Shown: in pieces, positions 1-58,464 of the stretch
How the letters are laid out: every line of letters begins with the position of its first letter
How positions within the stretch are numbered: position 1 is the stretch's first letter
NCBI GenBank assembly: GCA_947652925.1
Contig: CANTEW010000004.1
Span: forward strand, 34,028-98,027
Direction of reading: 5' to 3'
DNA from: an uncultured Lachnospiraceae bacterium
GTDB taxonomy: Bacteria > Bacillota > Clostridia > Lachnospirales > Lachnospiraceae
Length of the DNA stretch: 64,000 nt
Notes under the pieces: model-generated
The model's input: only the letters and a program-made list of their open reading frames with translations
Databases searched by the model: none
Told to the model about the DNA's origin: nothing
Program-made: the position numbers and the translations under genes

Positions 1-1134
1 GCTGGGATAGCTGTAAGTTTTTTTTGTGATCTTGATATGGGCAAATGGGGAGATTGTATTGAAAATGTAACGATAATCTCACCGTTTGAGATAGGATATA
101 GAAAATTTAGTGATAACAGGATCATATATATGATAGCATGTGTTGAACAGCCACAAGAAGTGATAAATTTATTCAGATATATGAGATTGGGTAATGTACA
201 AATTATAACTTACTGGGGAATAAGAATGGCGTTATACCTAAATAAGGAACATTTATATGGAAAAGGATCGAAAGAAGCGAATGCATTTCAGATAGAAAAG
301 ATAAAGAGGAGAAATAGATTTATCAATCTGGGATTTTCTTTTATGCATACAATGTTAACCGCTCCGGATGATGCAGTATGGATTTTGCAGCCAGGCAAAA
401 CAGCGTCATCCACATTAGTGAGAAGATTAGAAGAAAAAAAAGTTTCATATGTTAAACTGCATAGCTTGGAATATCCTCAACATATTTTAGGCGAAGAATT
501 TAGTGAAGTATGGAAAAACATGGTCAATGAAAGGATGAAAAAGCCGTTTAAGATCATAACAGCAGTGCGTGAGCCTATAAGCAGAGATTATTCCGCTTTT
601 TGGCAAGCGTTTTCAGATGACAATGAGATGGCGATGGAAATGTCAATCTTAAATAAGGACTTTCAGAAAACATATAATAAATATATAGATTTGATCTTAT
701 CAGGAAATGAGCATATGAAAAAAATTCTTGGAATGTCTATGATATTTCCTTGGGGAGAACAATTTGAATGGTTTGATGAACAGATAAAAAAATATTTAGA
801 TATAGATGTGTTTAAATATCCTTTTGATAAAATAAAAGGATATACGATAATAAAAAAAGGTAATGTTGAATTATTATTGTATAAGGTAGAAAAGATGGAG
901 AGTATATTAGATACGATTGCTTCATTTGTAGGTACTGCAGGATTATCTAAGACGAATGAGAATGTAGGTGGAGGGAAATGGTATGGGTTAGCATCCTCAC
1001 AGTTTCGCAGAGAATTAAAAATATCGAGACAGTATACAGATCATTACTATCGTGAGAATCCTAAAATGGATCATTTTTATTCTTTAGAAGAAAAAGAGTG
1101 TTTCTTGGAGAAATGGGAAGAAAATATTATATAA
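1..1134 (+). CDS. NKWYS-like sulfotransferase with N-terminal Rossmann-like module, 5'-truncated by window edge
   Basis: The frame is open to base 1 and the first in-frame ATG is at 37, but the residues before it (FFCDLDMGKWGD) continue a Rossmann-like module seen complete in neighbouring genes, so the true start lies outside the window. The second half (from about base 370) resembles the putative capsular polysaccharide synthesis / NKWYS family of sulfotransferase-like proteins: a 5'-phosphosulfate-type loop WILQPGKTASSTL near 379 and a 3'-phosphate-type motif VREPISRDYSAF near 566. A PAPS-dependent transfer of sulfate to a surface glycan is inferred from these motifs and from the neighbouring glycosyltransferases. 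It is paralogous to the gene at 2449; both end with a similar HFY..EE tail. Codon use is AT-rich like the rest of the island. Confidence 0.75.
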   Translation, partial: AGIAVSFFCDLDMGKWGDCIENVTIISPFEIGYRKFSDNRIIYMIACVEQPQEVINLFRYMRLGNVQIITYWGIRMALYLNKEHLYGKGSKEANAFQIEKIKRRNRFINLGFSFMHTMLTAPDDAVWILQPGKTASSTLVRRLEEKKVSYVKLHSLEYPQHILGEEFSEVWKNMVNERMKKPFKIITAVREPISRDYSAFWQAFSDDNEMAMEMSILNKDFQKTYNKYIDLILSGNEHMKKILGMSMIFPWGEQFEWFDEQIKKYLDIDVFKYPFDKIKGYTIIKKGNVELLLYKVEKMESILDTIASFVGTAGLSKTNENVGGGKWYGLASSQFRRELKISRQYTDHYYRENPKMDHFYSLEEKECFLEKWEENII

Positions 1135-1163
1135 ATTATTTGGAAGTGGGGTAATGATATAAA

Positions 1164-2333
1164 TTGAGTAAGATAGATTTGAGTATTATGGCTGGAGTGG
1201 AATATCAGGGAAAAGTTTATGCGTCAACAAGGGAGATAAATGGGCTATTTCAATTGGATCCGATCACGCAAAAAATGGTTTTTTTAAAAAGATTTTGTAA
1301 CGAAAGAACAGAATTAGTAATTTACAGAATGGCATTCTTATATAAAAACGAGATGTGGCTTATCCCAGGTATGGGTGAACATATTACAGTCGTCAATTTA
1401 GAGACTTTAGTTATGGATCATTATGAATTACCATTTAAGAGGATTGATAGAAAGACTTTATCGCAAAATAAAGGGATTTATTCATCTGTCTACTCTTCGG
1501 CAGGAATGATAGCAGATAGATTTTTGTATCTTATACCAGGGAATATTGATACTTTACTGCTTATCGATATGCAGACAAGAGAGTTTTATCCATATTACGA
1601 TATAGCAAAACCGCAAGATTTTTTGATAAACGGAATTTACGCTAAAGGGAGTATTTATTTGTTGCCTGTAAGAGGAAACGGGTTAATAAAAGTGGATCTT
1701 AGTACTAAAAAAAGGGATGAGTGTTTTCGAAAATTGTGTTGTAAAATATATAATGGACTTCAATTTTATGATAATAAATTGTGGAGTGTTTCTTCTAGTG
1801 GTGATCATATTATTAATATGGATTTGGATACGCAAAAGAGTCAAAAAAATTTTTTGCCAATATCCCATGATGGAGGAGTCATGTATCACGACATATTTAT
1901 AGATGAAAATGAATTATTTATACTTCCGCTCTGTGCAAAGAGAATATTAAGATATAATATGGATAATGGAAAAGTGAAGAGTGTGGATTTAGATTGTAAG
2001 TATTTAAAAAATGGAAATATAATATTGAGGAAGATTTTTTCTAAAAAAAGGATTATACTGGATTCGCCAAAAAATAAGAAATTGTTATTGTATGATAAAA
2101 AAAAGGATTTATTACAGGAGATTAGATTAAAAATTGATAAAAAAATATTACTGAATAGATTGGAAGAGGAAAATATCTTTATAAATAGAGAAGGTTTTTT
2201 ATATAATGGTTATAATAAAGAAAATATTTTAGATATTAAAAATCTTATTGGATGGATTGTTTCTCAAAATGATATAGAGAAAAAAACGTATGATAATATC
2301 GGAAATGATATATGGGATGCCGTGAAAGTATAA
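1164..2333 (+). CDS. Beta-propeller-like protein of unknown function in glycan island
   Basis: A 389-residue protein starting at TTG 1164, preceded by GGAAGTGGGG at 1142-1151; an upstream ATG at 1154 stops at once, so TTG is the best start. There is no signal peptide or membrane segment. The sequence shows repeated blocks of short beta-strand-like segments with the pattern hydrophobic-x-D-(L/M)-x-T-(K/Q/R) (for example NLETLVMDHYELP, DMQTREFYPYYD, DLSTKKRD, DLDTQKSQ, NMDNGKVKSVDL), typical of six- or seven-bladed propellers of the kelch/YVTN type. I do not recognise a specific family. It is the only gene of the island without the shared Rossmann-like module. Its place between two sulfotransferase-like genes suggests a role in binding or assembling the glycan, but nothing in the sequence proves it. 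Confidence 0.6.
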   Translation: MSKIDLSIMAGVEYQGKVYASTREINGLFQLDPITQKMVFLKRFCNERTELVIYRMAFLYKNEMWLIPGMGEHITVVNLETLVMDHYELPFKRIDRKTLSQNKGIYSSVYSSAGMIADRFLYLIPGNIDTLLLIDMQTREFYPYYDIAKPQDFLINGIYAKGSIYLLPVRGNGLIKVDLSTKKRDECFRKLCCKIYNGLQFYDNKLWSVSSSGDHIINMDLDTQKSQKNFLPISHDGGVMYHDIFIDENELFILPLCAKRILRYNMDNGKVKSVDLDCKYLKNGNIILRKIFSKKRIILDSPKNKKLLLYDKKKDLLQEIRLKIDKKILLNRLEEENIFINREGFLYNGYNKENILDIKNLIGWIVSQNDIEKKTYDNIGNDIWDAVKV

Positions 2334-2448
2334 AGATTAATTTTTTATAGATTTAAAATGTGGTAAGGAGTGTATTTCGGATTTAGGAGTAATTAAAAAA
2401 GAAAAGCCGTGTTAATAGAGCATAACATTGGATAGGAGAAAATGACAT

Positions 2449-3678
2449 ATGTTGAAGATTAAAGACGTGGACATGTTAAATAATGTGGATCTTGTATATG
2501 ATAATAAGATTTTTTTGTATGGGGCAGGGGATTATGGCTACAGGGCGGTCAAATTATTGAATCAGTTAGAGATACCTATTTATGGTATAAGCGATAGTGA
2601 CGAGAGATTGTGGGGAACATTTATAAAAGGACATGAGATCCAATCTGTTAAAGAATGGGTGGAGTTATGTAAAAAAGAACCTGTTACAGTCGTTATCACA
2701 GTCGCTGATCCAAATAGTATTGAACAAATATTACAAGTATTGGAGGGGTATAGGCTGTTAAATGCAGATTTTTACACATATTTTGCATTAAAGACGACTA
2801 TTGAACTTCATTTATGTGATTCGAGGATCAAGGAAACGTTTAGAGAAGATTTTCTTATTGCAAAAAGAACATATTATGATTTTATAAAGAATGATCTGGA
2901 AGATAGGGCAAGAGAATTTATATTTTCTGTAATGTTACATGATTTGATCGTAGTGTGGCAACCGGGGAAAGTTGGTTCAACGTCTATAGCAAGGAGTTTG
3001 AAAGCGATGGGAATCCATTATACCCATATGCATTGTTTAGCATTTCATAACTGGGTGGATTTGGAGCTTCGTAATGCATGCGGTATATCACATTATTGGG
3101 AGAGTGAGCCAATAGAAAAATTGGATATTTTAAAAAAATCAGAAAAAGTAAAAATCATTTCATTGGTCCGGGATCCAATCGCCAGGTCTGTGGCTGATTA
3201 TTTTGAAGGACTTGGGACACTATATTCTAAATATGATAATATAGACCGGGGCGTTTATCAGGAATTGAATGATTTTATAGGGCGGGAAGCGGAGCTAGGC
3301 GAATGTGGATATATTTTTGAGTGGTTCAATCAAGAGATTAAAGCATTTTTTGATATAGATGTCTATCAGTATCCTTTTGATAAAGAGAAAGGATATCAGG
3401 TTGTCTGCAAAGATAACGTGGAATTATTGTTGATCAAGACCGAAAAATTGTCTGGAAGCCAAGACATATTAGGTCAGTTTATTGGAAATAAAGATTTTAA
3501 ATTATTAGATAGTAATGTAGGGAATCAAAAGACATATAAATTTGCATATGAAGAGGTAAAAAATACGATAAGGATTCCTGAACATATTATAGATTTTTAT
3601 TATAGGGGAAATAAGGCTATGGATCATTTTTATACAGAAGAGGAGAAAAAAAGGCTGATCCAAAAATGGTGTCATTAA
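2449..3678 (+). CDS. Rossmann-like module fused to NKWYS-like sulfotransferase
   Basis: This 409-residue protein has two parts. Residues 20-110 form a Rossmann-like unit with FLYGAGDYG, then GISDSDERLWG and GHEIQSVKEW, the same layout as the modules in neighbouring genes. From about residue 165 it resembles sulfotransferases: VVWQPGKVGSTSIARSL matches a PAPS 5'-phosphosulfate loop and LVRDPIARSVADYF matches the 3'-phosphate motif. It is a paralogue of the gene ending at 1134. The start ATG follows GGATAGGAG at 2429-2437. The likely role is sulfation, or another transfer from PAPS, on a cell-surface polysaccharide; acceptor unknown. No PAPS-synthesis genes (cysC, cysD, cysN) are in the window, so the donor must come from elsewhere. 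Confidence 0.75.
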   Translation: MLKIKDVDMLNNVDLVYDNKIFLYGAGDYGYRAVKLLNQLEIPIYGISDSDERLWGTFIKGHEIQSVKEWVELCKKEPVTVVITVADPNSIEQILQVLEGYRLLNADFYTYFALKTTIELHLCDSRIKETFREDFLIAKRTYYDFIKNDLEDRAREFIFSVMLHDLIVVWQPGKVGSTSIARSLKAMGIHYTHMHCLAFHNWVDLELRNACGISHYWESEPIEKLDILKKSEKVKIISLVRDPIARSVADYFEGLGTLYSKYDNIDRGVYQELNDFIGREAELGECGYIFEWFNQEIKAFFDIDVYQYPFDKEKGYQVVCKDNVELLLIKTEKLSGSQDILGQFIGNKDFKLLDSNVGNQKTYKFAYEEVKNTIRIPEHIIDFYYRGNKAMDHFYTEEEKKRLIQKWCH

Positions 3679-3917
3679 AATTGGATTTTTCTTGAATCCC
3701 CACAATATTTGTAGACAGTTCGATAAATTTGTGCTAAGATCTAGGCAGGATTAAGGTTGCTTTTTTAAAGAATAATGCCATTTTAATATACGAATAGATA
3801 TTGGTTTATTTATCTAGCAAATCAAAGAGCAAAGGATTGGTTTGGTAAATAATAGTGCTGTATGTGTGAGATTCACTTATTTATGTCTGGATGGAATGAA
3901 AGGAATGTGAGTTCAGG
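3679..3917 (+). other. AT-rich intergenic spacer in glycan island
   Basis: The spacer separates the second sulfotransferase-like gene from the GT2 gene. I see no reading frame, tRNA or strong hairpin with a T-run. It may hold a promoter for the downstream genes, but no convincing -35/-10 pair stands out. Confidence 0.4.
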
Positions 3918-5024
3918 ATGGAAAAGGTAAAAGTATCCATTATAACACCGTGTTTTAACAGTAAGAGGACGATACGAAAAACAATTGAAAATGTGTTATA
4001 TCAAACTTATCAAAATATTGAATATATAATCATAGATGGTGGCTCTACAGATTCTACAGTTGATATAATACGGGAATATTTAGAGGCATTTAATGGTCGT
4101 TTAAAATATATTTCTGAGCCTGATTCTGGGATTTATAATGCAATGAATAAAGGGATTAAAATGGCAAGAGGTGGTCTTATAGGTATTATCAACAGCGATG
4201 ATTTTTATGAAACAGACACTGTAAAAAAAGTTGTTGATCATATGACAGATGATATGTATCAAGTCATATATGGATATTGTAATATTATGAGAAAGGGAAG
4301 ATATGTTAGGACGGATACGACAGGGTATAAAGAACTGGATAAGCGGATGATACCGCATCCTACATGTTTTGTCACGAGAAAAACCTATTGTAGATATGGT
4401 ATGTTTTTAGAGTGGTTGAAAATAGCGTCTGACCATGAGCTGATGTTAAGATTAGCAAAAGAGAAAGATGTAAATTTTATACAGATAGAAGATATACTTG
4501 CGAATTTTAGTGAAGGTGGAGTTTGTACACAGCCTGAATCACAGCAGAGATTTGAAAGAGAACGTTTGATTCTTTTGTGCATGCATGGGATTATCACTAA
4601 ACGGTATTTTATAAGGAATTATTTCACTAGTTTTAACCAAAGCAAAAGTCAAATGGCTTATAATAATTATAATTTATTTATGTTGATGGAACGCTGGGTG
4701 AAAATAAAACAACAGGGAAAAAATATAGCGGAATATTTAAAAAAAGAAAGATATTATGAGATTGCAATATATGGAATGAGTTATGTTGGAAAACGTCTTT
4801 TAGATGAATTAACTCAGAGTGACATAAAAGTTAAATACGGAATAGATCGATATGCAGGATCGATCAAATCATCTATTCCTGTTTTTTTTCCAGAGGATAA
4901 GTTAGATGTAGTTTCAGCTGTTATTGTTACGGCTGTATATTATTTTGATGAAATTAAAGAGGAGATGGAAAAGAAAATAAGCTGTCCAATCCTATCTCTG
5001 GAAGACATATTATATGAAATGTGA
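3918..5024 (+). CDS. GT2 family glycosyltransferase with C-terminal Rossmann-like module
   Basis: The N-terminal 220 residues are a GT-A fold family 2 glycosyltransferase: SIITPCFNSKRTIRKTIENV at the start, IIIDGGSTDSTVDII for nucleotide binding, GIYNAMNKGI, and the metal-binding acidic motif INSDDFYE near residue 93. A later PHPTCFVTRK and ASDHELMLRL fit the acceptor region of GT2 enzymes of the WcaA type. It would transfer a sugar from a nucleotide-sugar donor to a growing surface glycan on the cytoplasmic face. The last 90 residues (IAIYGMSYVGKRLLDEL, then YGIDRYAG) are a copy of the Rossmann-like module found in the neighbours, here at the C terminus. The next gene begins 15 bp downstream, so these are probably co-transcribed. 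Confidence 0.85.
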   Translation: MEKVKVSIITPCFNSKRTIRKTIENVLYQTYQNIEYIIIDGGSTDSTVDIIREYLEAFNGRLKYISEPDSGIYNAMNKGIKMARGGLIGIINSDDFYETDTVKKVVDHMTDDMYQVIYGYCNIMRKGRYVRTDTTGYKELDKRMIPHPTCFVTRKTYCRYGMFLEWLKIASDHELMLRLAKEKDVNFIQIEDILANFSEGGVCTQPESQQRFERERLILLCMHGIITKRYFIRNYFTSFNQSKSQMAYNNYNLFMLMERWVKIKQQGKNIAEYLKKERYYEIAIYGMSYVGKRLLDELTQSDIKVKYGIDRYAGSIKSSIPVFFPEDKLDVVSAVIVTAVYYFDEIKEEMEKKISCPILSLEDILYEM

Positions 5025-5039
5025 AAGGATAGTATTATA

Positions 5040-6251
5040 GTGAAAAAAGTATATGTATGGGGGGCTGGATACTATTCGGGCTTGCTTTATTCAGTGATAG
5101 ATAAGGCATCATGTATGGTAAAAGGTTTTATTGATAATGATAAGAGAAAGCAGGGGATATTATGGGATGATTCTTTGATGATATATAAACCTGAAATATT
5201 AAAAACAGCTGAATTCGATTATATTTTTATCTCACCTATAGATTATAAGGAAATTGAGCAGGTGTGTTTGGATATGGGGATACCAAAAGAAAAACTGATC
5301 ATCTATTGGAAAGATTCGGCATCGGAAGGATTATTTAAGAATAGAGGCTTAACACTTATAGATGTAGTAAAATACAAATACCGTTTAGAAAATGCTCCTT
5401 ACGAATGGGGATTAAAGCCCATACCGACGATAAGGTCAGGAGAAGAATTGCTCAAAAAAATACTTCTAGAAGGGAACTCTTTATGTCGCTTTGGAGATGG
5501 GGAATTTGAGATCATGAGGGGAAGGGAACGACCTTGGTTCCAGAATGTCGAAAAAAATCTTTCAAAACGTTTATGTGAGATTATCAGGAGCCATAAATCT
5601 GATATCATTATCACAATCCCAGCAAATTTTGGCGATCTAAGTATGTATAAGGAAGAGAGCGCGGATGATATAAGAGCATATATGGCGGACGGGACTAGGG
5701 AGAGTATTATGGGATATATAGATCCAGATGGTGTATATTATGATGCATATGTGTCAAGGCCATATATTATTTATAAGGATTGTATGATTGCAGATAAGAT
5801 ATTTCTTCTTTTTAAAGCAATATGGGAAGGTCGGAATGTGATCCTTGTTGAGGGACGATATGCAAGGAATGGGATGGGAAATAATTTGTTTGCAGGCGCT
5901 AGATCGGTAAAGAGGATTTTATGCCCCACTGTCAATGCATGGGATGTATATGATCAGATTCTTTCATCTGTTTTGGATGTAGCGGGTGGGGAAGATCTGA
6001 TCTGTATCTCTCTGGGGCCAACAGCGACTGTAATGGCGTACGATTTGGGAGAGAAAGGGTTTCAGGCACTAGATATCGGACAATTGGATAACGAATATGA
6101 ATGGTATATACGAGGGACGCAAGAGAGGATACTCATACCAGGGAAAATGGTGGCTGAGATAAAAGGTCGTCATGTAGAAAAAGATTTATATGATGACGAG
6201 TATAAAGCACAGATTTGTAAGATTATAGGTGGAGATGGGGAAACTTTATAA
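5040..6251 (+). CDS. GT-D fold glycosyltransferase (DUF1792-like) with N-terminal Rossmann-like module
   Basis: The start is GTG 5040 preceded by GAAAGGAT. Residues 1-100 are the island's Rossmann-like module (VYVWGAGYYSG, GFIDNDKRKQG, MIYKPEIL). From about residue 125 the protein matches the GT-D type glycosyltransferases (DUF1792), known from the serine-rich-repeat glycoprotein pathway of streptococci: the signature SLCRFGDGEFEIMRG near 5482-5526, then SRPYIIYKD, NVILVEGRYARNGMG and the C-terminal GPTATVMAYDLGEKGFQALD. It probably adds a hexose to a glycan. The fusion of this fold to the N-terminal module is also part of the island pattern. Family assignment is by motif memory; donor and acceptor are unknown. 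Confidence 0.75.
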   Translation: MKKVYVWGAGYYSGLLYSVIDKASCMVKGFIDNDKRKQGILWDDSLMIYKPEILKTAEFDYIFISPIDYKEIEQVCLDMGIPKEKLIIYWKDSASEGLFKNRGLTLIDVVKYKYRLENAPYEWGLKPIPTIRSGEELLKKILLEGNSLCRFGDGEFEIMRGRERPWFQNVEKNLSKRLCEIIRSHKSDIIITIPANFGDLSMYKEESADDIRAYMADGTRESIMGYIDPDGVYYDAYVSRPYIIYKDCMIADKIFLLFKAIWEGRNVILVEGRYARNGMGNNLFAGARSVKRILCPTVNAWDVYDQILSSVLDVAGGEDLICISLGPTATVMAYDLGEKGFQALDIGQLDNEYEWYIRGTQERILIPGKMVAEIKGRHVEKDLYDDEYKAQICKIIGGDGETL

Positions 6252-6278
6252 AAAACATTATGTAGGGAAGGAGAGCAT

Positions 6279-7358
6279 ATGGAACGGGTGTTTTGCTGGG
6301 GAACGGGTGAAATGGCAACTGCCGCAATGTCATATATTAATATATCCAAAATATGTGAAGTATTGGGGTTTATAGACAATGATACAAATAAACAAAAGAC
6401 TTCTTTTTTTGGTAAAACTGTATTCTCTCCACAGATATTAAGAGAAAAAAAATGTAGTAAGATTATAGTTTTAACGAGTCATTATGATGAGATTAGGGAA
6501 CAGATTGAAGACATGCATTTGTCTTATGATATCACGGTAGAAAAGATTAATTATATATATGGAAAAAGTATACTAAAACGGTATGAAGAAGATCAGGATG
6601 GTGAGATTGATAAGATCTTAAGATATGTTGAAGAGAATGGCTTACAGATTTTTAATTATGATTTTGTGGAAAAATATGTGGATAAACATATTACACCGGT
6701 ATATGATAGTAGATGTCAGATGTATTATATATGGCATAAGAGAAAACGCATGTATTTTGCAAAATATTTAGATACAGCCGAAAAAGTAGAAAGATATTAT
6801 AGAAATATATTGATAGAACAGGATGAACATTCACCACATAGATATCTGGATGATAATTTTACAGTTGATGAGGGAGATATTGTAGTAGACGCAGGTGTAG
6901 CCGAAGGGAATTTTGCGATTGATATTATAGATGAAGTGTCTAAGATATATTTGATCGAAGCAGATGAACGATGGGTAGAAGCGTTAAAACAGACATTCAG
7001 CGCATATATGGATAAAGTAGTCATTATACCGAAATATCTCTCTTGTGTAGATGAAGGGAAGTATACAACGTTGGATCGACTGGTCACAGGACCGGTGGAT
7101 TTTATTAAAATGGATATAGAAGGGTACGAATGTGATGCATTGCTTGGTGCATATGGATTATTTGAGGATTCAAAAAGGCTAAAATGTGCAGTATGTTCAT
7201 ACCATAATGATCACGATGAGGTTGTGATCAAACATATTTTAGGTGACTATGGTATGGAATGTGGACATACAGATGGCTATATGTGGTTTCCATATTTATG
7301 TAGAAAAAATTATATTTCTACAAAACTCTGCAGGGGGATTGTTCGAGGAAAAAAATAA
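6279..7358 (+). CDS. FkbM family SAM-dependent methyltransferase with N-terminal Rossmann-like module
   Basis: Translation starts at ATG 6279 behind GGGAAGGAGAG. Residues 1-95 are the shared module (VFCWGTGEMA, GFIDNDTNKQ, VFSPQILREKK). The C-terminal part is a FkbM-type methyltransferase: DIVVDAGVAEGNFAIDI is the SAM-binding motif I near 6878-6930, IYLIEADERWVEAL is motif II, and VDFIKMDIEGYECDAL near 7094 is the FkbM hallmark. Enzymes of this family usually O-methylate sugar hydroxyls, so this one is expected to cap or modify the island's polysaccharide. Length (359 aa) fits a FkbM domain of about 230 residues plus the extra module. Confidence 0.82.
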   Translation: MERVFCWGTGEMATAAMSYINISKICEVLGFIDNDTNKQKTSFFGKTVFSPQILREKKCSKIIVLTSHYDEIREQIEDMHLSYDITVEKINYIYGKSILKRYEEDQDGEIDKILRYVEENGLQIFNYDFVEKYVDKHITPVYDSRCQMYYIWHKRKRMYFAKYLDTAEKVERYYRNILIEQDEHSPHRYLDDNFTVDEGDIVVDAGVAEGNFAIDIIDEVSKIYLIEADERWVEALKQTFSAYMDKVVIIPKYLSCVDEGKYTTLDRLVTGPVDFIKMDIEGYECDALLGAYGLFEDSKRLKCAVCSYHNDHDEVVIKHILGDYGMECGHTDGYMWFPYLCRKNYISTKLCRGIVRGKK

Positions 7359-7379
7359 AAGATATGGAGATGTCTATTT

Positions 7380-7526
7380 ATGGAGAGGATATGTATATAT
7401 GTAACATATGACCCAGAAGGTATCGTAGATGGATATATAAGCTATATATTAAAAGAGTTGAAGACATGTATAGAGTGTCTGATTGTGGTCTCTAACAACG
7501 GAGAGATTGTCTGTGGAAGCAGGTGA
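7380..7526 (+). pseudogene. Displaced N-terminus of the RgpF-like gene (frameshift upstream part)
   Basis: From ATG 7380 the frame encodes 48 residues beginning MERICIYVTYDPEGIVDGY and continuing through ECLIVVSNN, which is the expected start of a RgpF-type protein, and then stops at 7524-7526. The remainder of the family homology continues in the frame that starts at 7483, one base out of phase. The two frames overlap only between 7483 and 7523, and a single extra base near 7500 (AACGGAG) would join them as VVSNN then ERLSVEAG. Either the gene is broken, the frame is recoded, or this is a sequencing error. Confidence 0.7.
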
Positions 7527-9324
7527 TTCGCCTGGCGTTGAAAAATATGCTGAAAAAGTCTTTTATAGAGAAAATAAAGGTTTTGATGCAGGGGCGTTTA
7601 AAGATACATTATGCACATTTATAGGATGGGAAACGGTTTTAAGATATGATGAGTTGATATTGGTAAATGATTCAATGTTTGGACCTTTTCGTCCGATGAA
7701 AGATATATTTAGGGAAATGGATCAAAAGTCTGTTGATTTTTGGGGGTTGACAAAACATAGAGGTTACAAAAAGAATGGTTATGAAGGGTTTGAGGAACAT
7801 ATACAATCTTTTTTCCTAACGATACGTACAGATATGTTACATAGCGATCATTTTAGATCTTATTGGGAAAATATGCCGTATTATGAATCTTACGATAAAG
7901 TAGTCAGAGAATATGAGATGAAATTTACTGCGCATTTTTTTGATTTGGGATATAAGTATGATGTTCTGGCAGATATGGATGCGAATGATTCGGATGTTTT
8001 AGAGAATAATTATATCCAGTTTGAAACAATCTCCTATGAGCTGATAAAAAAACGTAATTTTCCTTTTTTAAAAAAACAGCAGATTTCCTACAATACGCTA
8101 GATAAACAGACACAGGAGAATTTACGTCAGGCGATCGCCTATATAGATGAAGAAACAGATTATGACATAAATCTCATATGGGATAATATTATAAGGACAT
8201 TGAATATATCTGATTTGCAGAGGAGTCTCCATTTCCAATATATCATTCCCCCAGGACAGGGACGATACAGATATCATATTGCGGTCGTGATTTTTGTTTC
8301 TCATAAAGATGCGGCACAGTATGTGTTGGAATATCTGCAAAGATTGGATAGATATCAAGTTATAAAAATCATTACTCATGATTACGAGCTGATGCGGCTT
8401 TACCAAGAACAAGGCTATATGTGTGAATTGATCGAGTATGCAAAATTTTTGAAATCCCTTGTTCCTTTTAGGGTTTATGATTTGGTGTGTATACTGCACG
8501 ATGTTGATATGACATCAAAAAAAAGGTATAGTTGTATTGGCAAATCATATTTTTATAATATTTGGGAAAATCTTATAAAAAATAAGGAACATGTTCAAGG
8601 AATCCAAGAACTTTTTGAGAAAGAAAAAAGGCTTGGATTTATAGCACCTCCCCAACCAAATTTTTCGGGATATTTTGGAGAGATTGGAAAGGGGTGGGGG
8701 GAGGAACTTGAAGGAGTTTGCAATGTTGTCAAAAGATTAAACATACATTGTCAGATTTCGGAAGAGATTCCGCCTTTTTGTGTATCAGATGATTTTTGGA
8801 TCCGTGGATGTGTTTTGAAACGTTTAGAGGATATGAAAGAGGAAGATTTCCAGTATCTGCCTTATCTTTGGGGATATCTGGCACAGGATGCAGGATATTA
8901 TGCAGGAGTTGTGGAGAGTATGGACTATGCCTCTATGAACGAAGTGAATATGCATTATTATATGAGTCGGATCCTGGATCGGATAAGGCAGCAATATGGA
9001 GGATTTGAGGATATTATTGAGATGGAAAAAATATTATCTCGTTCAGCCTTACGAGAATTCTGCGAGAAATATCCTCGTATCTTTATTTATGGAACGGGTT
9101 ATACGGCGAGACGATATAGGGATATTTTGTCGTATGTCGAGGCTTATATAGTATCAGATGGAGAAGTGAAGGAAAAAGAGTTGGATGGGATACCGATAAA
9201 ATTTTTATCAGAAATAACAATGACAGACGATTGTGGGATAATTGTCTGCTTGAAAAAAAGAAATATGATACAAGTAAAGAAACTTTTAAGAGAGCGAGGG
9301 ATAGGGCATTACTTGTGTATGTGA
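7483..9324 (+). CDS. RgpF-like (rhamnan synthesis protein F family) glycan protein, N-terminus out of frame, with C-terminal Rossmann-like module
   Basis: The main frame encodes most of a RgpF family protein: FYRENKGFDAGAFKD near 7561-7605, ELILVNDSMFGPFRP near 7651-7695, VDFWGLTKHRG, and FFLTIRTDML are characteristic of the family, which takes part in export or synthesis of rhamnose-containing cell-wall polysaccharides. A second RgpF-like block follows from about 8280 (HIAVVIFVSHKDAAQYV, VCILHDVDMT). The final 90 residues carry the island module (IFIYGTGYTARRYRDIL). The apparent TTG start at 7483 is not the original one: the first 34-40 residues lie in another frame at 7380. Whether a functional protein is made depends on that frame break. 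The next gene starts 48 bp downstream. Confidence 0.75.
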   Translation: MWSLTTERLSVEAGDSPGVEKYAEKVFYRENKGFDAGAFKDTLCTFIGWETVLRYDELILVNDSMFGPFRPMKDIFREMDQKSVDFWGLTKHRGYKKNGYEGFEEHIQSFFLTIRTDMLHSDHFRSYWENMPYYESYDKVVREYEMKFTAHFFDLGYKYDVLADMDANDSDVLENNYIQFETISYELIKKRNFPFLKKQQISYNTLDKQTQENLRQAIAYIDEETDYDINLIWDNIIRTLNISDLQRSLHFQYIIPPGQGRYRYHIAVVIFVSHKDAAQYVLEYLQRLDRYQVIKIITHDYELMRLYQEQGYMCELIEYAKFLKSLVPFRVYDLVCILHDVDMTSKKRYSCIGKSYFYNIWENLIKNKEHVQGIQELFEKEKRLGFIAPPQPNFSGYFGEIGKGWGEELEGVCNVVKRLNIHCQISEEIPPFCVSDDFWIRGCVLKRLEDMKEEDFQYLPYLWGYLAQDAGYYAGVVESMDYASMNEVNMHYYMSRILDRIRQQYGGFEDIIEMEKILSRSALREFCEKYPRIFIYGTGYTARRYRDILSYVEAYIVSDGEVKEKELDGIPIKFLSEITMTDDCGIIVCLKKRNMIQVKKLLRERGIGHYLCM

Positions 9325-9372
9325 TACATATGAGTGTTCTGTACTTGATAAAAATTTGGAGATAGAGTAAAA

Positions 9373-11439
9373 ATGTCCGATTTAGTCCGAGAATTTCAAA
9401 AATATAAACACAGTAACATTGCTATATATGGTTTGAGTACAGAGACAAAAAAAGTTTTGGATGAGATTAAAGAAGAGTTTTCTATTGTAGGTTTGTTAGA
9501 TGGATATAAAAACACTGGCATGCTTTACGGTAAACCAATCATTTCGATAGAGAAGGCTATTGAGTATCAGGTAAAACTTATTTTAGTTGTTGCAAGGCCA
9601 GGATCCTGTAGAGCGATAGCAAAACGTATAAAAAAGGTATGTATAGAAAATCAGATTGATCTTTTTGATATTAGAGGACGCAATCTGAGTGTTCAAAAAA
9701 GTGTAGTGTACAATTTTAAAGGGGTCAATGGAATTAAAAAAAATGATCTCTTTCAGGTTATTGGTAAGTATGATGTTGTCAGTATTGATTTATTTGATAC
9801 ATTGATCATGCGGCAGATAGTTTTTTCTTCGGATGTCTTTGAATTGGTTGAATGCAGATTAAAGGAGCAAGGAATTTTTATAAAAGATTTTGCTGCAAAA
9901 CGCCTAGAGGCCGAAAAATATCTGTCAAAGATAACTGCGCCAACACTTAGAGATATTTATGAATATATGATAAGAGTTTATTCTATTGAGGGAATAACAG
10001 TTGATGAGTTAAAAATGTTGGAATGGGAAATAGACCGTGATTTAATCATTCCTAGATGGGATATGTGCAAGCTTATATCAGATATATATTATGGTGGAAA
10101 AGAAGTATATATAGTTTCAGACACATTTTATAGAAAAAGAGAACTTGAAAAAATATTAAAGAAATGGGATATCGTTTTTTTTACAGATATATACGCTTCA
10201 TGTGAATATGGCATGAGTAAATCACAGGGGCTTTTTCATAAATTACAAAATAAACTTGCCGGTAAAACATGCGTACATATAGGTGATGATATTTTTGCTG
10301 ATATAGAGTGTGCGGAGAAAAATTTTATACCGGCGTGTCATATATATAGCGGCCTTGATCTATTAGAAATGTTGGGTTACCTGGATTTATGGGATTATAT
10401 AAATGATATATCGAGCAAGATCAAAGTCGGAATGTTTATGTCAAAACTTTTTAATAGTCCTTTCCAGTTTGAAACAGAAGAACGGAAAATTGAAGTAAAA
10501 ACTGCATATGAGATTGGATATCTGTTTTTTGCACCTATCGTTAGGGATTTTCTTATCTGGTTCGATAGGCAAGTTCGGGATAACAACCTACAAAATGTTT
10601 GGTTTTGTGCCAGAGATGGATATCTATTAAAAAAAATATATGATAAATGGAAACATGGTACATCATCGGTTTACTTTTTGACATCACGTACAGCGGCAAT
10701 CTGCGCGGGTGTAGAGACGGAAGAGGATCTTCGTCATATTGAAAAAATGAGATTTAGTGGGACTATACAAGAACATTTAGAAAAACGTTTTGGTCTTTCG
10801 ATTGAAAAAAAGAAAGGAGGAGATTTTTCTTCAGATACTTTGTTGGACTATTCAGTGGAGATATTAGATAAGACCACTGTAGATAGGGAAAATTATAAGA
10901 AATATATTCAACAGCTGAATATTAGGAAAGGAGATATTGCCTTTTTTGATTTCGTTGCAAAAGGAACGAGCCAGATGTATATCCAACGTTTGGTCACAAA
11001 TCATTTGACAGGTTTATATTTTTTGCGATTAGGAAAGGAGGATAAAGAAAGTGAGGGATTGGATATCTTATCTTTTTATAGTAATGAGGAGATAGATGAT
11101 AATGGCATTTATGATGATTATTATATATTGGAAACTGTATTGACATCTTTTATGCCTTCTGTTAAGGGATTTGACGGACAAGGGAGGGTACATTATGAAG
11201 AAGAGACAAGAGATGAGGGGAGTTTAGCATGTATTTTGTCTGTCCAAAATGGTATATTTGATTATTTTATGGAATATCTAAAAATCTGTCCAGATATGGA
11301 TGAGGGAATAGATAAAGGATTGGATGAGCTGTTTTTGAAATTGATACATAAAACTGCTATTGTTGATAAAGATTTTTTGAATCTAATGGTCGAGGATCCT
11401 TTTTTTAATCGGGAAACTCATATGACAGAGTTATTATAA
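9373..11439 (+). CDS. Large HAD-superfamily hydrolase-like protein with N-terminal Rossmann-like module
   Basis: The 688-residue protein starts at ATG 9373 behind GGAGATAGAG. Residues 10-110 are the shared module (IAIYGLSTETKK, GLLDGYKNTGMLYG, PIISIEKAIE). From residue 135 a HAD phosphohydrolase domain is readable with all four motifs: SIDLFDTLIM (nucleophile motif), VSDTFY (motif II), a lysine in GMSKSQG (motif III) and HIGDDIFADIE (motif IV). It resembles the large HAD-type predicted hydrolases of polysaccharide loci (COG5610-like). The C-terminal 300 residues are not assignable by eye; they contain WFCARDGYLLKKIYDKW and LTSRTA, often seen in these long forms. It is the last gene of the AT-rich island. 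It may dephosphorylate a sugar phosphate or a glycan-linked phosphate. Confidence 0.75.
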   Translation: MSDLVREFQKYKHSNIAIYGLSTETKKVLDEIKEEFSIVGLLDGYKNTGMLYGKPIISIEKAIEYQVKLILVVARPGSCRAIAKRIKKVCIENQIDLFDIRGRNLSVQKSVVYNFKGVNGIKKNDLFQVIGKYDVVSIDLFDTLIMRQIVFSSDVFELVECRLKEQGIFIKDFAAKRLEAEKYLSKITAPTLRDIYEYMIRVYSIEGITVDELKMLEWEIDRDLIIPRWDMCKLISDIYYGGKEVYIVSDTFYRKRELEKILKKWDIVFFTDIYASCEYGMSKSQGLFHKLQNKLAGKTCVHIGDDIFADIECAEKNFIPACHIYSGLDLLEMLGYLDLWDYINDISSKIKVGMFMSKLFNSPFQFETEERKIEVKTAYEIGYLFFAPIVRDFLIWFDRQVRDNNLQNVWFCARDGYLLKKIYDKWKHGTSSVYFLTSRTAAICAGVETEEDLRHIEKMRFSGTIQEHLEKRFGLSIEKKKGGDFSSDTLLDYSVEILDKTTVDRENYKKYIQQLNIRKGDIAFFDFVAKGTSQMYIQRLVTNHLTGLYFLRLGKEDKESEGLDILSFYSNEEIDDNGIYDDYYILETVLTSFMPSVKGFDGQGRVHYEEETRDEGSLACILSVQNGIFDYFMEYLKICPDMDEGIDKGLDELFLKLIHKTAIVDKDFLNLMVEDPFFNRETHMTELL

Positions 11440-12735: not shown

Positions 12736-14004
12736 TAATGTATTGACAGATTAACTTCTATAATGAAAGGTGGTATCATTTGATCACTATATAAAAGAGG
12801 AGAAAAATGGGATACCAAGTACAATATAAAGTATCACTTGACCAGGATGAAGGATTAAAACTGGAGGCCATGAGTAAAGACAACCAACTTTCTGCGCGTA
12901 TCTTAAAACGTATCTCATCCTCTTTGCTCTGGATAAAAGGGCAGATACTGGACTGGACTATAAACAGATCGCATCCTCATTGGATGCAACAGCCGCGACC
13001 GTTGCGAGAGTCGCAAAAGACTATGCTACCAATGGGTTAGACTATACTGTATCCTATCATTATAACCCTGCATCACGCAGAAGGGCAAAAGTGAATGGAG
13101 AACTGGAAGCCTATGTGATACAGCTCGCATGCGGGAAAGCCCCGGAAGGCTATGTAGACTGGACGCTGGAACTCCTGACCCGTGGAGCTAATAAAAAAGG
13201 TGTCGCAGAGCCTGTCTCTAAAGAAACAATCTGTGTCATGTTTAAAAAAATGGACTCAAACCTCGGAAAGATGAGTATTGGTGCATCCCCCCCCTAAAGA
13301 GAACGCTGCATTCGTAGCCTGTATGGAAGATATCCTGCATATATACTCACTGCCCTCTGCCCCCGAGGTCCCTGTCATCTGTATGGATGAAAGACCATAT
13401 CAGCTGATCGGTGAGGCAAGAGAGCCATTGGCGGCAAGACCTGGTGATATCAAAAAACTGGATGCGGAGTATAAACGCTGTGGGACTTGTAGCATCTTTG
13501 TGTCCACAGAAGCCCTCGCTGGATGGCGCCACGTCAGTGTACGGGAACGCCGGACAAAGCTGGACTGGGCAATGGAGATAAGATATATATATATTGACAG
13601 AAGTATATCCTGATAAGGAAAAGATCATCCTTGTGATGGATAACCTGAACACCCATACAAAAGCCTCCCTATACCAGGCATTCCCCGCCGCAGGAGCGGC
13701 GGCACTGGCAAACCGCTTGGAGATCCACTATACCCCTAAGCATGGGAGCTGGCTGAACATAGCTGAGATAGAGCTGAACGCGATGACACACCAGTGCCTG
13801 GACCGGAGGATAGATGATATCGATATCCTGCGCCGGGAGCTGTCCATATGGGAGAGTGAACGCAACGAAAAATGTAAGTCGGTTGACTGGCAGTTTACCG
13901 CAGAAGATGCACGTATCAGACTGAGATCATTATATCTAAAGATCATTTTTTGATCATATGATTAATAGGATTGTCGTTATAGAAGTCAGCTTGTCGATAC
14001 ACTA
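12736..14004 (+). mobile_element. IS630-family insertion sequence with 28-bp inverted repeats and TA flanks
   Basis: Imperfect terminal inverted repeats are visible at 12739-12766 and 13974-14001 (22 of 28 positions match; inner core ACTTCTATAA identical). One base outside each repeat lies a TA dinucleotide (12736-12737 and 14003-14004), as expected for IS630/Tc1-type TA target duplication. The element encloses one transposase gene in three or four frame pieces. The right end stops 25 bp before the ATG of the AAA ATPase gene. Confidence 0.8.
12807..13953 (+). pseudogene. IS630 transposase, broken by three frameshifts
   Basis: Four consecutive pieces add up to one IS630-family transposase. 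The first begins at ATG 12807; it shifts near 12915 into a frame reading LDYKQIASSLDATAATVARV; the second shift is at the C8 tract 13287-13294; the third is at the TA repeat near 13583-13592. The DDE residues are still readable: the first D in VICMDERPYQ, the second in [11 protein letters not shown], and the E in [15 protein letters not shown]. The helix-turn-helix region is at the N terminus. As it stands no full-length transposase can be made without recoding. Two of the breaks lie in simple repeats, so slippage or sequencing error is possible for these. Confidence 0.8.
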
Positions 14005-57446: not shown

Positions 57447-58373
57447 TTAAGCGATCCGCTGCAGTAATATGGATGCATGGTTGACGGCTTGGTTGTCGAT
57501 ACCTGTTCCTGCCAGATGGTCTGTGGTGGAAGATCTGTTGCGCAGTGAGACAGTCGATCCTGCCGGGATTGAGGTGATGAACATCCCCGTGAGTCCAGTG
57601 CGCTGCGGATCTGCGTCTCCGTTCAGATAAGTCTCAAAAAATGATAAAGGGTCCTCCCGCCCATTGATGGCTACTGCATAGGCGATATTGATCGAGCCAG
57701 CGGCAGGGCGGGCGAGGACAGAGTAGTCTATCCGATAGATGCCGCCTGTGTTGACTGTGATCTCAGATGTATTTGGCGTAAAAGAAAAATCTCCAGATTG
57801 AAATGCCAGAAGGAAATCCACGGATCCGTCTGGGGGGACGTCTTGGTATCCTCCCTGCATGACGGCGTTAAAGTAGGCGGGTCTCACCCCGGGCCCCGGT
57901 TCACCCCGGGGTCCGGCAGGTCCAGTTTCCCCTTGAGGTCCCACGGGCCCAATCTCGCCTTGAGGTCCCGCAAGTCCAGAGCTTCCCACAGGTCCAGGGG
58001 GTCCCGGTTCTCCTTGGGGTCCCACAGGGCCCGGTCTTCCCTGAGCCCCAGGTTTCCCTTGGGGTCCGGCGGGTCCAGTTTCCCCTTGAGGTCCCATAGG
58101 TCCAGGGGGTCCTGGTTCTCCTTGGGGTCCGATAAGGCCAGTTTTCCCTTGAGATCCCATAGGTCCAGGGGGTCCTGGTTTCCCTTGGGGTCCCACAGGA
58201 CCCGGTCTTCCCTGAGGCCCAGGTTTCCCTTGGGGTCCGGCAGGCCCTGGTCTGCCTTGAGGTCCGGCGGGTCCAGTTTCCCCTTGAGGTCCCTGAGGCC
58301 CTGGTCCGCCTTGAGGTCCGGCGGGACCCCGGCAGCAGCAACGACAGCGGGGGCGTTTACGACGGTCATCCAT
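57447..58373 (-). CDS. Collagen-like repeat protein with C-terminal globular domain
   Basis: ATG 58373 is chosen since AAGGAG is 9 bp upstream; the GTG at 58382 overlaps the site. The 308-residue product begins with a basic Cys-rich start ([10 protein letters not shown]), then about 49 Gly-X-Y triplets without interruption (residues about 16-165), rich in GPQ, GPP and GET/GKP; it can form a triple helix. The C-terminal 140 residues look like a C1q/TNF-like or BclA_C jelly roll ([32 protein letters not shown]). There is no signal peptide or sortase motif. It is most like the collagen-like glycoproteins of clostridial spore exosporium, attached through its Cys-rich head; that is an inference. 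Confidence 0.88.
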
Positions 58374-58464
58374 TTTATCCACTCCTTCTAAATATACATG
58401 ATATATCTATTTTATGCGCAGGATCTTTGTATGTGCAGATCCTCTTGGAAGGTATAAACTAACC

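Follow-up and report, generated by a model that had tools for sequence, protein, structure and literature searches.

A small Rossmann-type module on unrelated surface-sugar enzymes and on a separate, apparently membrane-anchored protein suggests a common part for assembling or co-regulating a sugar-making line

Why should one small protein domain recur on otherwise unrelated enzymes of a single glycan locus? The question is raised by a 64,000-nucleotide stretch of DNA from an uncultured Lachnospiraceae bacterium (hereafter, the window), which spans C4:34028-98027 of a draft genome of 2.9 Mb in 100 contigs. Positions 1-11439 hold eight genes, here g1 to g8, all co-directional (+). A reading made from the letters alone (the sequence-only reading) had proposed that seven of them carry the same Rossmann-like module at one end or the other, and this was borne out: all but g2 bear one homologous module of about 100 residues, N-terminal in g1, g3, g5, g6 and g8 and C-terminal in g4 and g7. 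One module on many unrelated surface-sugar enzymes, with further copies in separate, apparently membrane-anchored proteins, suggests that a line of sugar-making enzymes shares a component by which it is assembled or co-regulated.

The homology was established with profiles. Pairwise BLAST comparisons of the seven modules were mostly non-significant (exceptions: g5-g6, E about 5e-9; g1-g3, about 1e-4; g4-g8, about 3e-3) and therefore too weak to decide the matter. A profile of 636 modules from genomes other than that of the window, comprising those with a labelled partner and those standing alone, settled it by matching all seven window modules with expectation values (E) of 1.9e-20 to 2.3e-12. 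As the search that collected the 636 modules, run in iterations, had started from the window modules, this is a strong test, if not a fully independent one. Each module was still found when its own partner type was left out of the profile (g4, 2e-20; g5, 3.5e-18; g6, 8.6e-17; g3, 9e-14; g1, 2e-12; g8, 1.6e-10; g7, 1.9e-9), so that the same module is recognized on unrelated enzymes by models lacking the enzyme type in question. The 636-module profile matched no further open reading frame (ORF) in the window or in the 34 kilobases upstream of it (stretches L004 and L005) except a truncated copy of g3, and sets of reversed and shuffled ORFs gave zero matches at E<=1. The similarity is thus above chance.

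Other details of the sequence-only reading needed correction. The seven genes represent six enzyme classes rather than seven, as g1 and g3 are both NKWYS/sulfotransferase-like. A GxGxxG block in its strict form is present only in these two (2/7), and the other modules read GMSYVG, GAGYYS, GTGEMA, GTGYTA and GLSTET. The N-terminal module of g1 is a property of the full ORF (L005:14890-16161); its glycine loop lies upstream of the window, which holds only the last part of the module.

The module is widespread in the family. Among 298 Lachnospiraceae genomes, 134 had at least one match and 43 had at least five, when up to 16 candidates per genome were scored. In 398 genomes of the phylum (up to 12 candidates each), 22 had at least five matches, under 13 family labels; this count includes background matches to Rex, and sets of five or more may not each lie in one locus. 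Single phylum matches of about 210-231 residues are probably Rex, judging by length. Close relatives of the g4-type module in named records were mostly from Lachnospiraceae. Co-occurrence of such fusions in other genomes was also evident: in 40 regions chosen for their many module matches, together with the window and its upstream stretches, 295 of 748 ORFs had the module (298 domains). Two early matches, a Gfo/Idh protein in L061 and a Rex in L078, were dropped as other Rossmann proteins on reading their sequences; at least two of the 295 are therefore false, and these were removed before the module-likeness test and the partner census described below. Combining these regions with 75 further loci gave 1867 distinct ORFs, and the module is present in 825 of them. 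The first set seems already to contain at least two of the 75 (L095/L067 and L167/L066); identical proteins were counted once, and a few end-truncated ORFs remain in the partner census and in the signature and helix counts.

Representatives of the module-bearing proteins exceeded the Pfam cut-off for 17 enzyme families, and the end that carries the module is typical of the family. It was C-terminal in GT2 (144, against 2 N-terminal and 2 other), RgpF (27) and WbsX (17), and N-terminal in FkbM (55, with 5 in the middle), Gly_transf_sug (27), DUF4422 (19, with 1 double), GT-D (15), HAD (14, with 2 C-terminal) and, under one label, radical SAM (37, with 4 C-terminal). GT4 was mixed (31 N-terminal, 17 C-terminal, 1 in the middle). 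The window genes obey these preferences. Partner labels were assigned by iterated search, each family starting from one or two seeds, and 183 module ORFs had no label. Tandem pairs of modules were seen in two proteins, L086:13529-15217 and L057:11982-13664, one pair spanning residues 291-492 of 562, the other N-terminal.

Presence of the module tracks the locus. We selected loci by enzyme, not by module, using matches to RgpF (47), GT-D (34) and WbsX (62) in the 298 genomes. Surroundings were covered for all but 2 of the 143 matches, the two being fragmentary WbsX in G045. The counts exclude end-truncated ORFs and identical ones; some contigs are short, and neighbours can be hidden on them. 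Defining a locus as module-rich when at least two of its other ORFs had the module, we found the module on 19/19 RgpF enzymes in module-rich loci versus 0/29 elsewhere, on 15/19 WbsX versus 0/34, and on 8/11 GT-D versus 0/21. The GT-D exceptions were one fragmented gene (L228) and two genes without a recognized module (L088 and L212). Each of the four module-less WbsX genes in module-rich loci abuts or overlaps a gene for a standalone module, with starts placed at the mechanical first start codon, on which the overlaps depend. The weight of this pattern lies in the repeated gain of the module by unrelated families in the same loci. The census and the enzyme-selected loci both support the earlier remark that the layout goes beyond one domain per enzyme.

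The module is also found without an enzyme, in proteins about 158 residues long. Eighteen standalone modules were aligned with the C-terminus of g4, to which they are 28-47% identical, and a search with four standalone copies and this C-terminus (A3) found the 75 loci mentioned above; 72 hold a complete standalone copy, and 441 of their 1047 other ORFs, spread over 73 loci, carry the module. A membrane-like helix, scored as a strongly hydrophobic 19-residue stretch, preceded the module in 79 of 108 distinct complete standalone proteins from these 75 loci. Applied to the 60 residues before fused modules with more than 100 residues ahead of them, the same test was positive in 2/302. The neighbours of standalone copies were also distinctive. 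Labelled enzymes directly upstream had a module of their own in 7/48 cases versus 25.8 expected from type-specific rates, and in 7/37 versus 20.6 once similar copies were removed. Downstream the bias was weak (22/44 versus 29.8). The genome of the window itself gave two matches to the standalone subfamily, both inside long ORFs. A 436-residue protein elsewhere in this genome (L204:9536-10846) has a C-terminal module of the g4/standalone type (G000:C1:149538-149807).

The gene that lacks the module, g2 (1164..2333, +; 389 residues, TTG start), also follows these loci. We found 56 matching ORFs in the set, including g2 and its duplicate, and none has the module. Among the enzyme-selected loci, relatives of g2 were present in 8/20 module-rich versus 0/77 module-poor loci; in the other two locus sets they were present in 16/40 and 29/72 module-rich loci and in 0/2 module-poor ones. 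The g2 profile weakly matches beta-propellers (G-beta/WD protein, E 6e-5; virginiamycin B lyase, 9e-4), and no signal sequence was seen in g2 by eye. It looks like a part of the system rather than an interruption, although most module-rich loci are without it.

On profile evidence, the module is a member of the Rex / WbaP-DUF / PglD_N / CAC2185 group of Rossmann domains, on a divergent branch. A profile (A4) of 6 window modules and 61 of 70 others picked for it matched, in the PDB, 3nkl (a UDP-quinovosamine 4-dehydrogenase entry) at 1.9e-9, Rex at 2.8e-9, 2g6t (which we take to be CAC2185) at 3e-8, four WbaP chains at 4.2e-4 to 4.5e-4 (residues 145-239 or 146-240 of the chain) and VioB at 7e-4. 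Compared singly with Pfam at E<=0.01, these 67 modules matched C2185-like_N (19), PglD_N (17), Methyltransf_14 (6) and CoA_binding (5); PF13727 (CoA_binding_3) was not among the 16 families matched. The likeness to PglD_N and to PF08484 (Methyltransf_14) proposed in the sequence-only reading is therefore supported as a distant resemblance. Established models stopped short of their cut-offs in the window. With PglD_N (PF17836; 23.4 bits), g3 scored 15.7 and the other seven proteins (g1 truncated) gave no match at E<=1; a third NKWYS paralog in the genome scored 22.9. With C2185-like_N (PF22674; 27 bits), g5 scored 20.8 as a whole protein and 24.2 as the module alone, and the other seven window proteins gave no match at E<=1. 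The NCBIfam model NeuD_NnaD matched g3, g6 and g5 below its cut-off. Across 832 modules the nucleotide-site signature is kept in part: 96% have the first glycine and 78% the second, 77% have Gly/Ala in third position, 82% have an acidic residue following strand 2, and 44% combine all four. Whole classes depart from it, the acidic residue being found in 0/27 RgpF modules and 10% of 21 DUF4422 modules, and the second glycine in 31% of 134 standalone modules.

What would such a module do? The sequence-only reading had offered a shared nucleotide or sugar ligand, or docking of the enzymes into one assembly, and either may apply. The reading we favour, at somewhat less than an even chance, is a shared assembly domain by which the enzymes encoded in one glycan locus would come together at the membrane, probably under nucleotide-dependent control. 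The enzymes bearing fused copies range from glycosyltransferases, methyltransferases and sulfotransferase-like proteins to radical-SAM and other modifying enzymes. Standalone proteins, most of them with a single membrane-like helix at the N-terminus, would anchor the complex and supply the module to an adjacent enzyme that has none, and the beta-propeller-like protein (g2 here) may join the set in some loci. Module-module contact, a ligand and an effect on catalysis would all belong to such a role. We infer the assembly with nucleotide control, and the anchoring by standalone copies, from work on WbaP and EpsZ and from the occurrence of modules in trans. According to excerpts of the WbaP report, its domain makes most of the enzyme's dimer contact and is stabilized by uridine mono-, di- and triphosphate (UMP, UDP and UTP), UMP inhibits the enzyme, and the authors assign nucleotide sensing to the domain (PMC10942596). 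Excerpts of a report on EpsZ, which is without the WbaP hairpin considered below, describe a partner protein modelled to join the domains of two chains by strand pairing (PMC12802240). The position of standalone copies beside module-less enzymes favours docking, and the gaps in the signature across whole classes suit a role in which a ligand is not always required. A fuller picture, offered more tentatively, is a glycan assembly line: standalone copies anchored in the membrane would be the docking site for unrelated enzymes, all attached through the one Rossmann module, some loci would add a beta-propeller hub, and capsule-like or protein-glycan pathways would thereby form one membrane complex whose assembly may be nucleotide-switched.

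Several observations weigh against assembly. The dimer contact of the WbaP domain is made almost entirely through a beta-hairpin at residues 251-268, as given in excerpts of that report (PMC10942596). This hairpin lies beyond the stretch matched by A4, so the WbaP precedent may not carry over, and we lowered our estimate for docking slightly on this account. The glycines and the acidic residue are kept in most modules, and a pure docking domain would not need them. Twenty-nine of the 108 standalone modules lack the helix; the downstream neighbour deficit is marginal after removal of similar copies (18/34 versus 22.6, P 0.057); and module-less GT4 enzymes make up 27 of the 48 directly upstream, perhaps representing one conserved gene pair. 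The window's genome, a draft in 100 contigs, yielded no intact standalone copy. Module-less enzymes are common in these loci (GT2, 73/221; GT4, 91/140; WbsX, 11/28; TagF-type, 18/23). Trees of the enzyme domains show only 2, 2 and 3 changes of module state, so the locus counts reflect few independent events; tree-based tests of independence gave no significance, with too few changes. Finally, modules within a locus are only marginally more alike than modules across loci (17/300 permutations), and no locus-specific pairing code is visible.

The strongest alternative is a nucleotide sensor without assembly, which we regard as a serious if somewhat doubtful possibility. A common allosteric domain would read UMP/UDP, a nucleoside diphosphate (NDP)-sugar or nicotinamide adenine dinucleotide (NAD(H)) and throttle the pathway jointly, as proposed for the WbaP domain, which is stabilized by uridine nucleotides and whose enzyme is inhibited by UMP (excerpts of PMC10942596). 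The closest solved relatives by profile, which include Rex, the WbaP domain and VioB, point the same way as the frequencies of the signature residues. Standalone copies, however, have no catalytic domain to control, and the loss of the acidic residue in the RgpF and DUF4422 modules, with all four features in fewer than half, counts against this reading.

We consider it improbable that the module is instead a substrate handle, gripping an NDP-linked intermediate by its nucleotide end and leaving the sugar to the fused domain, as in PglD-type acetyltransferases. Several partners are indeed sugar-modifying enzymes, and in excerpts of work on the PglD-type Pcryo_0637, UDP is bound in this domain, where Asp40 contacts the ribose and Asp41 the uracil (PMC8040287). 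In the modules, however, the position after the first acidic residue (column 39) is mostly Asn, Ser or Lys, so that the base-reading second Asp is mostly lost; many partners are glycosyltransferases with donor binding of their own; and standalone copies are left unexplained.

A permutation test of module likeness (leaving out truncated g1 and g3, modules under 65 residues and identical modules) gave a partner effect reached by 0/300 permutations, set beside the locus effect above. Since modules follow partner type more than locus and change state rarely, most of them must have passed down together with the enzyme that bears them. The marginal locus effect beside this strong partner effect gives no support to frequent exchange of modules between enzymes of a locus. 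Such inheritance is what a neutral hitch-hiker or stability domain, an old and easily fused fold spread in loci without a common task, would show, an explanation that is equally improbable given the locus-wise presence in three unrelated families, the standalone copies with their neighbour bias, and the companion gene.

Several known systems come close. The 'DUF' domain of WbaP/CpsE (PF13727, CoA_binding_3; large phosphoglycosyl transferases) is profile-related (E 4e-4) and sits in a membrane glycan enzyme; its dimer contact and uridine-nucleotide binding (excerpts of PMC10942596) resemble the candidate role of the module. That domain belongs to one enzyme type, in one copy, with its dimer hairpin outside the matched stretch, whereas the module is found on many enzyme families, at either end, in many copies per locus and alone. 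In PglD_N (PF17836), VioB and Pcryo_0637, too, a sugar-modifying enzyme bears a small Rossmann domain at one end, with a weak match in sequence, but the partner there is a left-handed beta-helix acetyltransferase, and the module mostly lacks the second Asp. The N-terminal domain of CAC2185 (PF22674), which starts a 306-residue protein, is among the best matches (E 3e-8; 19/67), although the protein is uncharacterized; our search of the literature listed no paper with CAC2185 or C2185-like. The NAD(H) domain of the Rex repressor (profile E 2.8e-9) is part of a transcription factor with another partner and task. A weak, non-significant match of the module profile to PDB 2py6, an FkbM methyltransferase (chain residues 54-117, E 0.14), marks a possible solved protein with module and FkbM domain.

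In polyketide and peptide synthase lines, shared end domains dock the different enzymes of one line. The module might work alike; no homology is claimed, and the contact here is a prediction. What sets the order of bacterial glycan enzymes has long been asked, and the usual answer is substrate specificity by itself. Our literature search (titles and abstract starts, outside subscription journals and preprints) found no description of a multi-enzyme module of this kind; the fold group is known, and what the literature found does not describe is a module of this group recurring at one end or the other of many enzymes in a locus, as a fusion or as a separate protein. If assembly is correct, a module common to many enzymes of a locus, and supplied in trans by an apparent membrane anchor as well, would make a physical assembly line for glycans in gut Lachnospiraceae accessible to genetics. 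It would serve as a sequence mark for finding such loci and their unknown enzymes. Even as a sensor only, one ligand would co-ordinate control of a pathway.

The genes of the window are as follows, all on the forward strand (+). The g1 enzyme (1..1134, its 5' end beyond the window edge; PF10364, the NKWYS family of capsule-synthesis proteins, E 8e-17) is 423 residues long once restored from the upstream stretch, with its module at residues 20-131, of which only positions 1-255 lie in the window (E 7.9e-13). The second NKWYS/sulfotransferase-like gene, g3 (2449..3678; PF10364, E 5.7e-21), has its module at 2503..2826 (E 8.3e-14). The sulfotransferase-like label derives from the third paralog of the genome, which matches Sulfotransfer_1 at E 0.006, below the cut-off; this paralog (L203:8710-9948) lies elsewhere in the genome and also has an N-terminal module (G000:C6:36585-36899). 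The GT2 glycosyltransferase g4 (3918..5024; PF00535, E 9.9e-32) carries at 4728..5018 a module of the standalone subfamily (E 1.9e-20). In the GT-D glycosyltransferase g5 (5040..6251, GTG start; PF08759, E 1.3e-76) the module lies at 5043..5333 (E 5.4e-19) and matches PDB 2g6t at E 0.0016. The FkbM-type methyltransferase g6 (6279..7358; PF05050, E 3.4e-5, above the cut-off) has it at 6282..6599 (E 1e-16), and the RgpF-type glycosyltransferase g7 (7483..9324, TTG start; PF05045, E 5.7e-100) at 9055..9303 (E 5.6e-13). The last gene, g8 (9373..11439), encodes a HAD-like protein (PF00702, E 9.6e-4, below the cut-off) with a module at 9391..9684 whose glycine loop, GLSTET, is degenerate (E 2.3e-12), and with an extra C-terminal domain. 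This domain (residues 371-688) has 27 matches in the ORF set counting g8 (26 others), some of them in proteins of more than 900 residues that also match RgpF and have no module.

Upstream of the window, L005:3-7832 holds glycan-type genes without the module (glycosyltransferase-like, LicD-like, polymerase-like and ABC exporter-like, named by eye), so that module-free and module-bearing blocks adjoin in this genome. Beside the module genes lie two related genes with signal-like starts, L005:8114-11338 (-), encoding 1074 residues with repeats, and L005:13541-14689 (+), encoding 382 residues. Their products could be surface proteins that are glycan targets of the module enzymes, and relatives occur in five other loci (L066, L071, L136, L145 and L267). 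Just 3' of g8, three overlapping short ORFs in different frames (12980-13953) look like remnants of a broken transposase when read from their translations. Farther downstream, 57447-58382 (-) encodes a 311-residue collagen-like protein with Gly-X-Y repeats.

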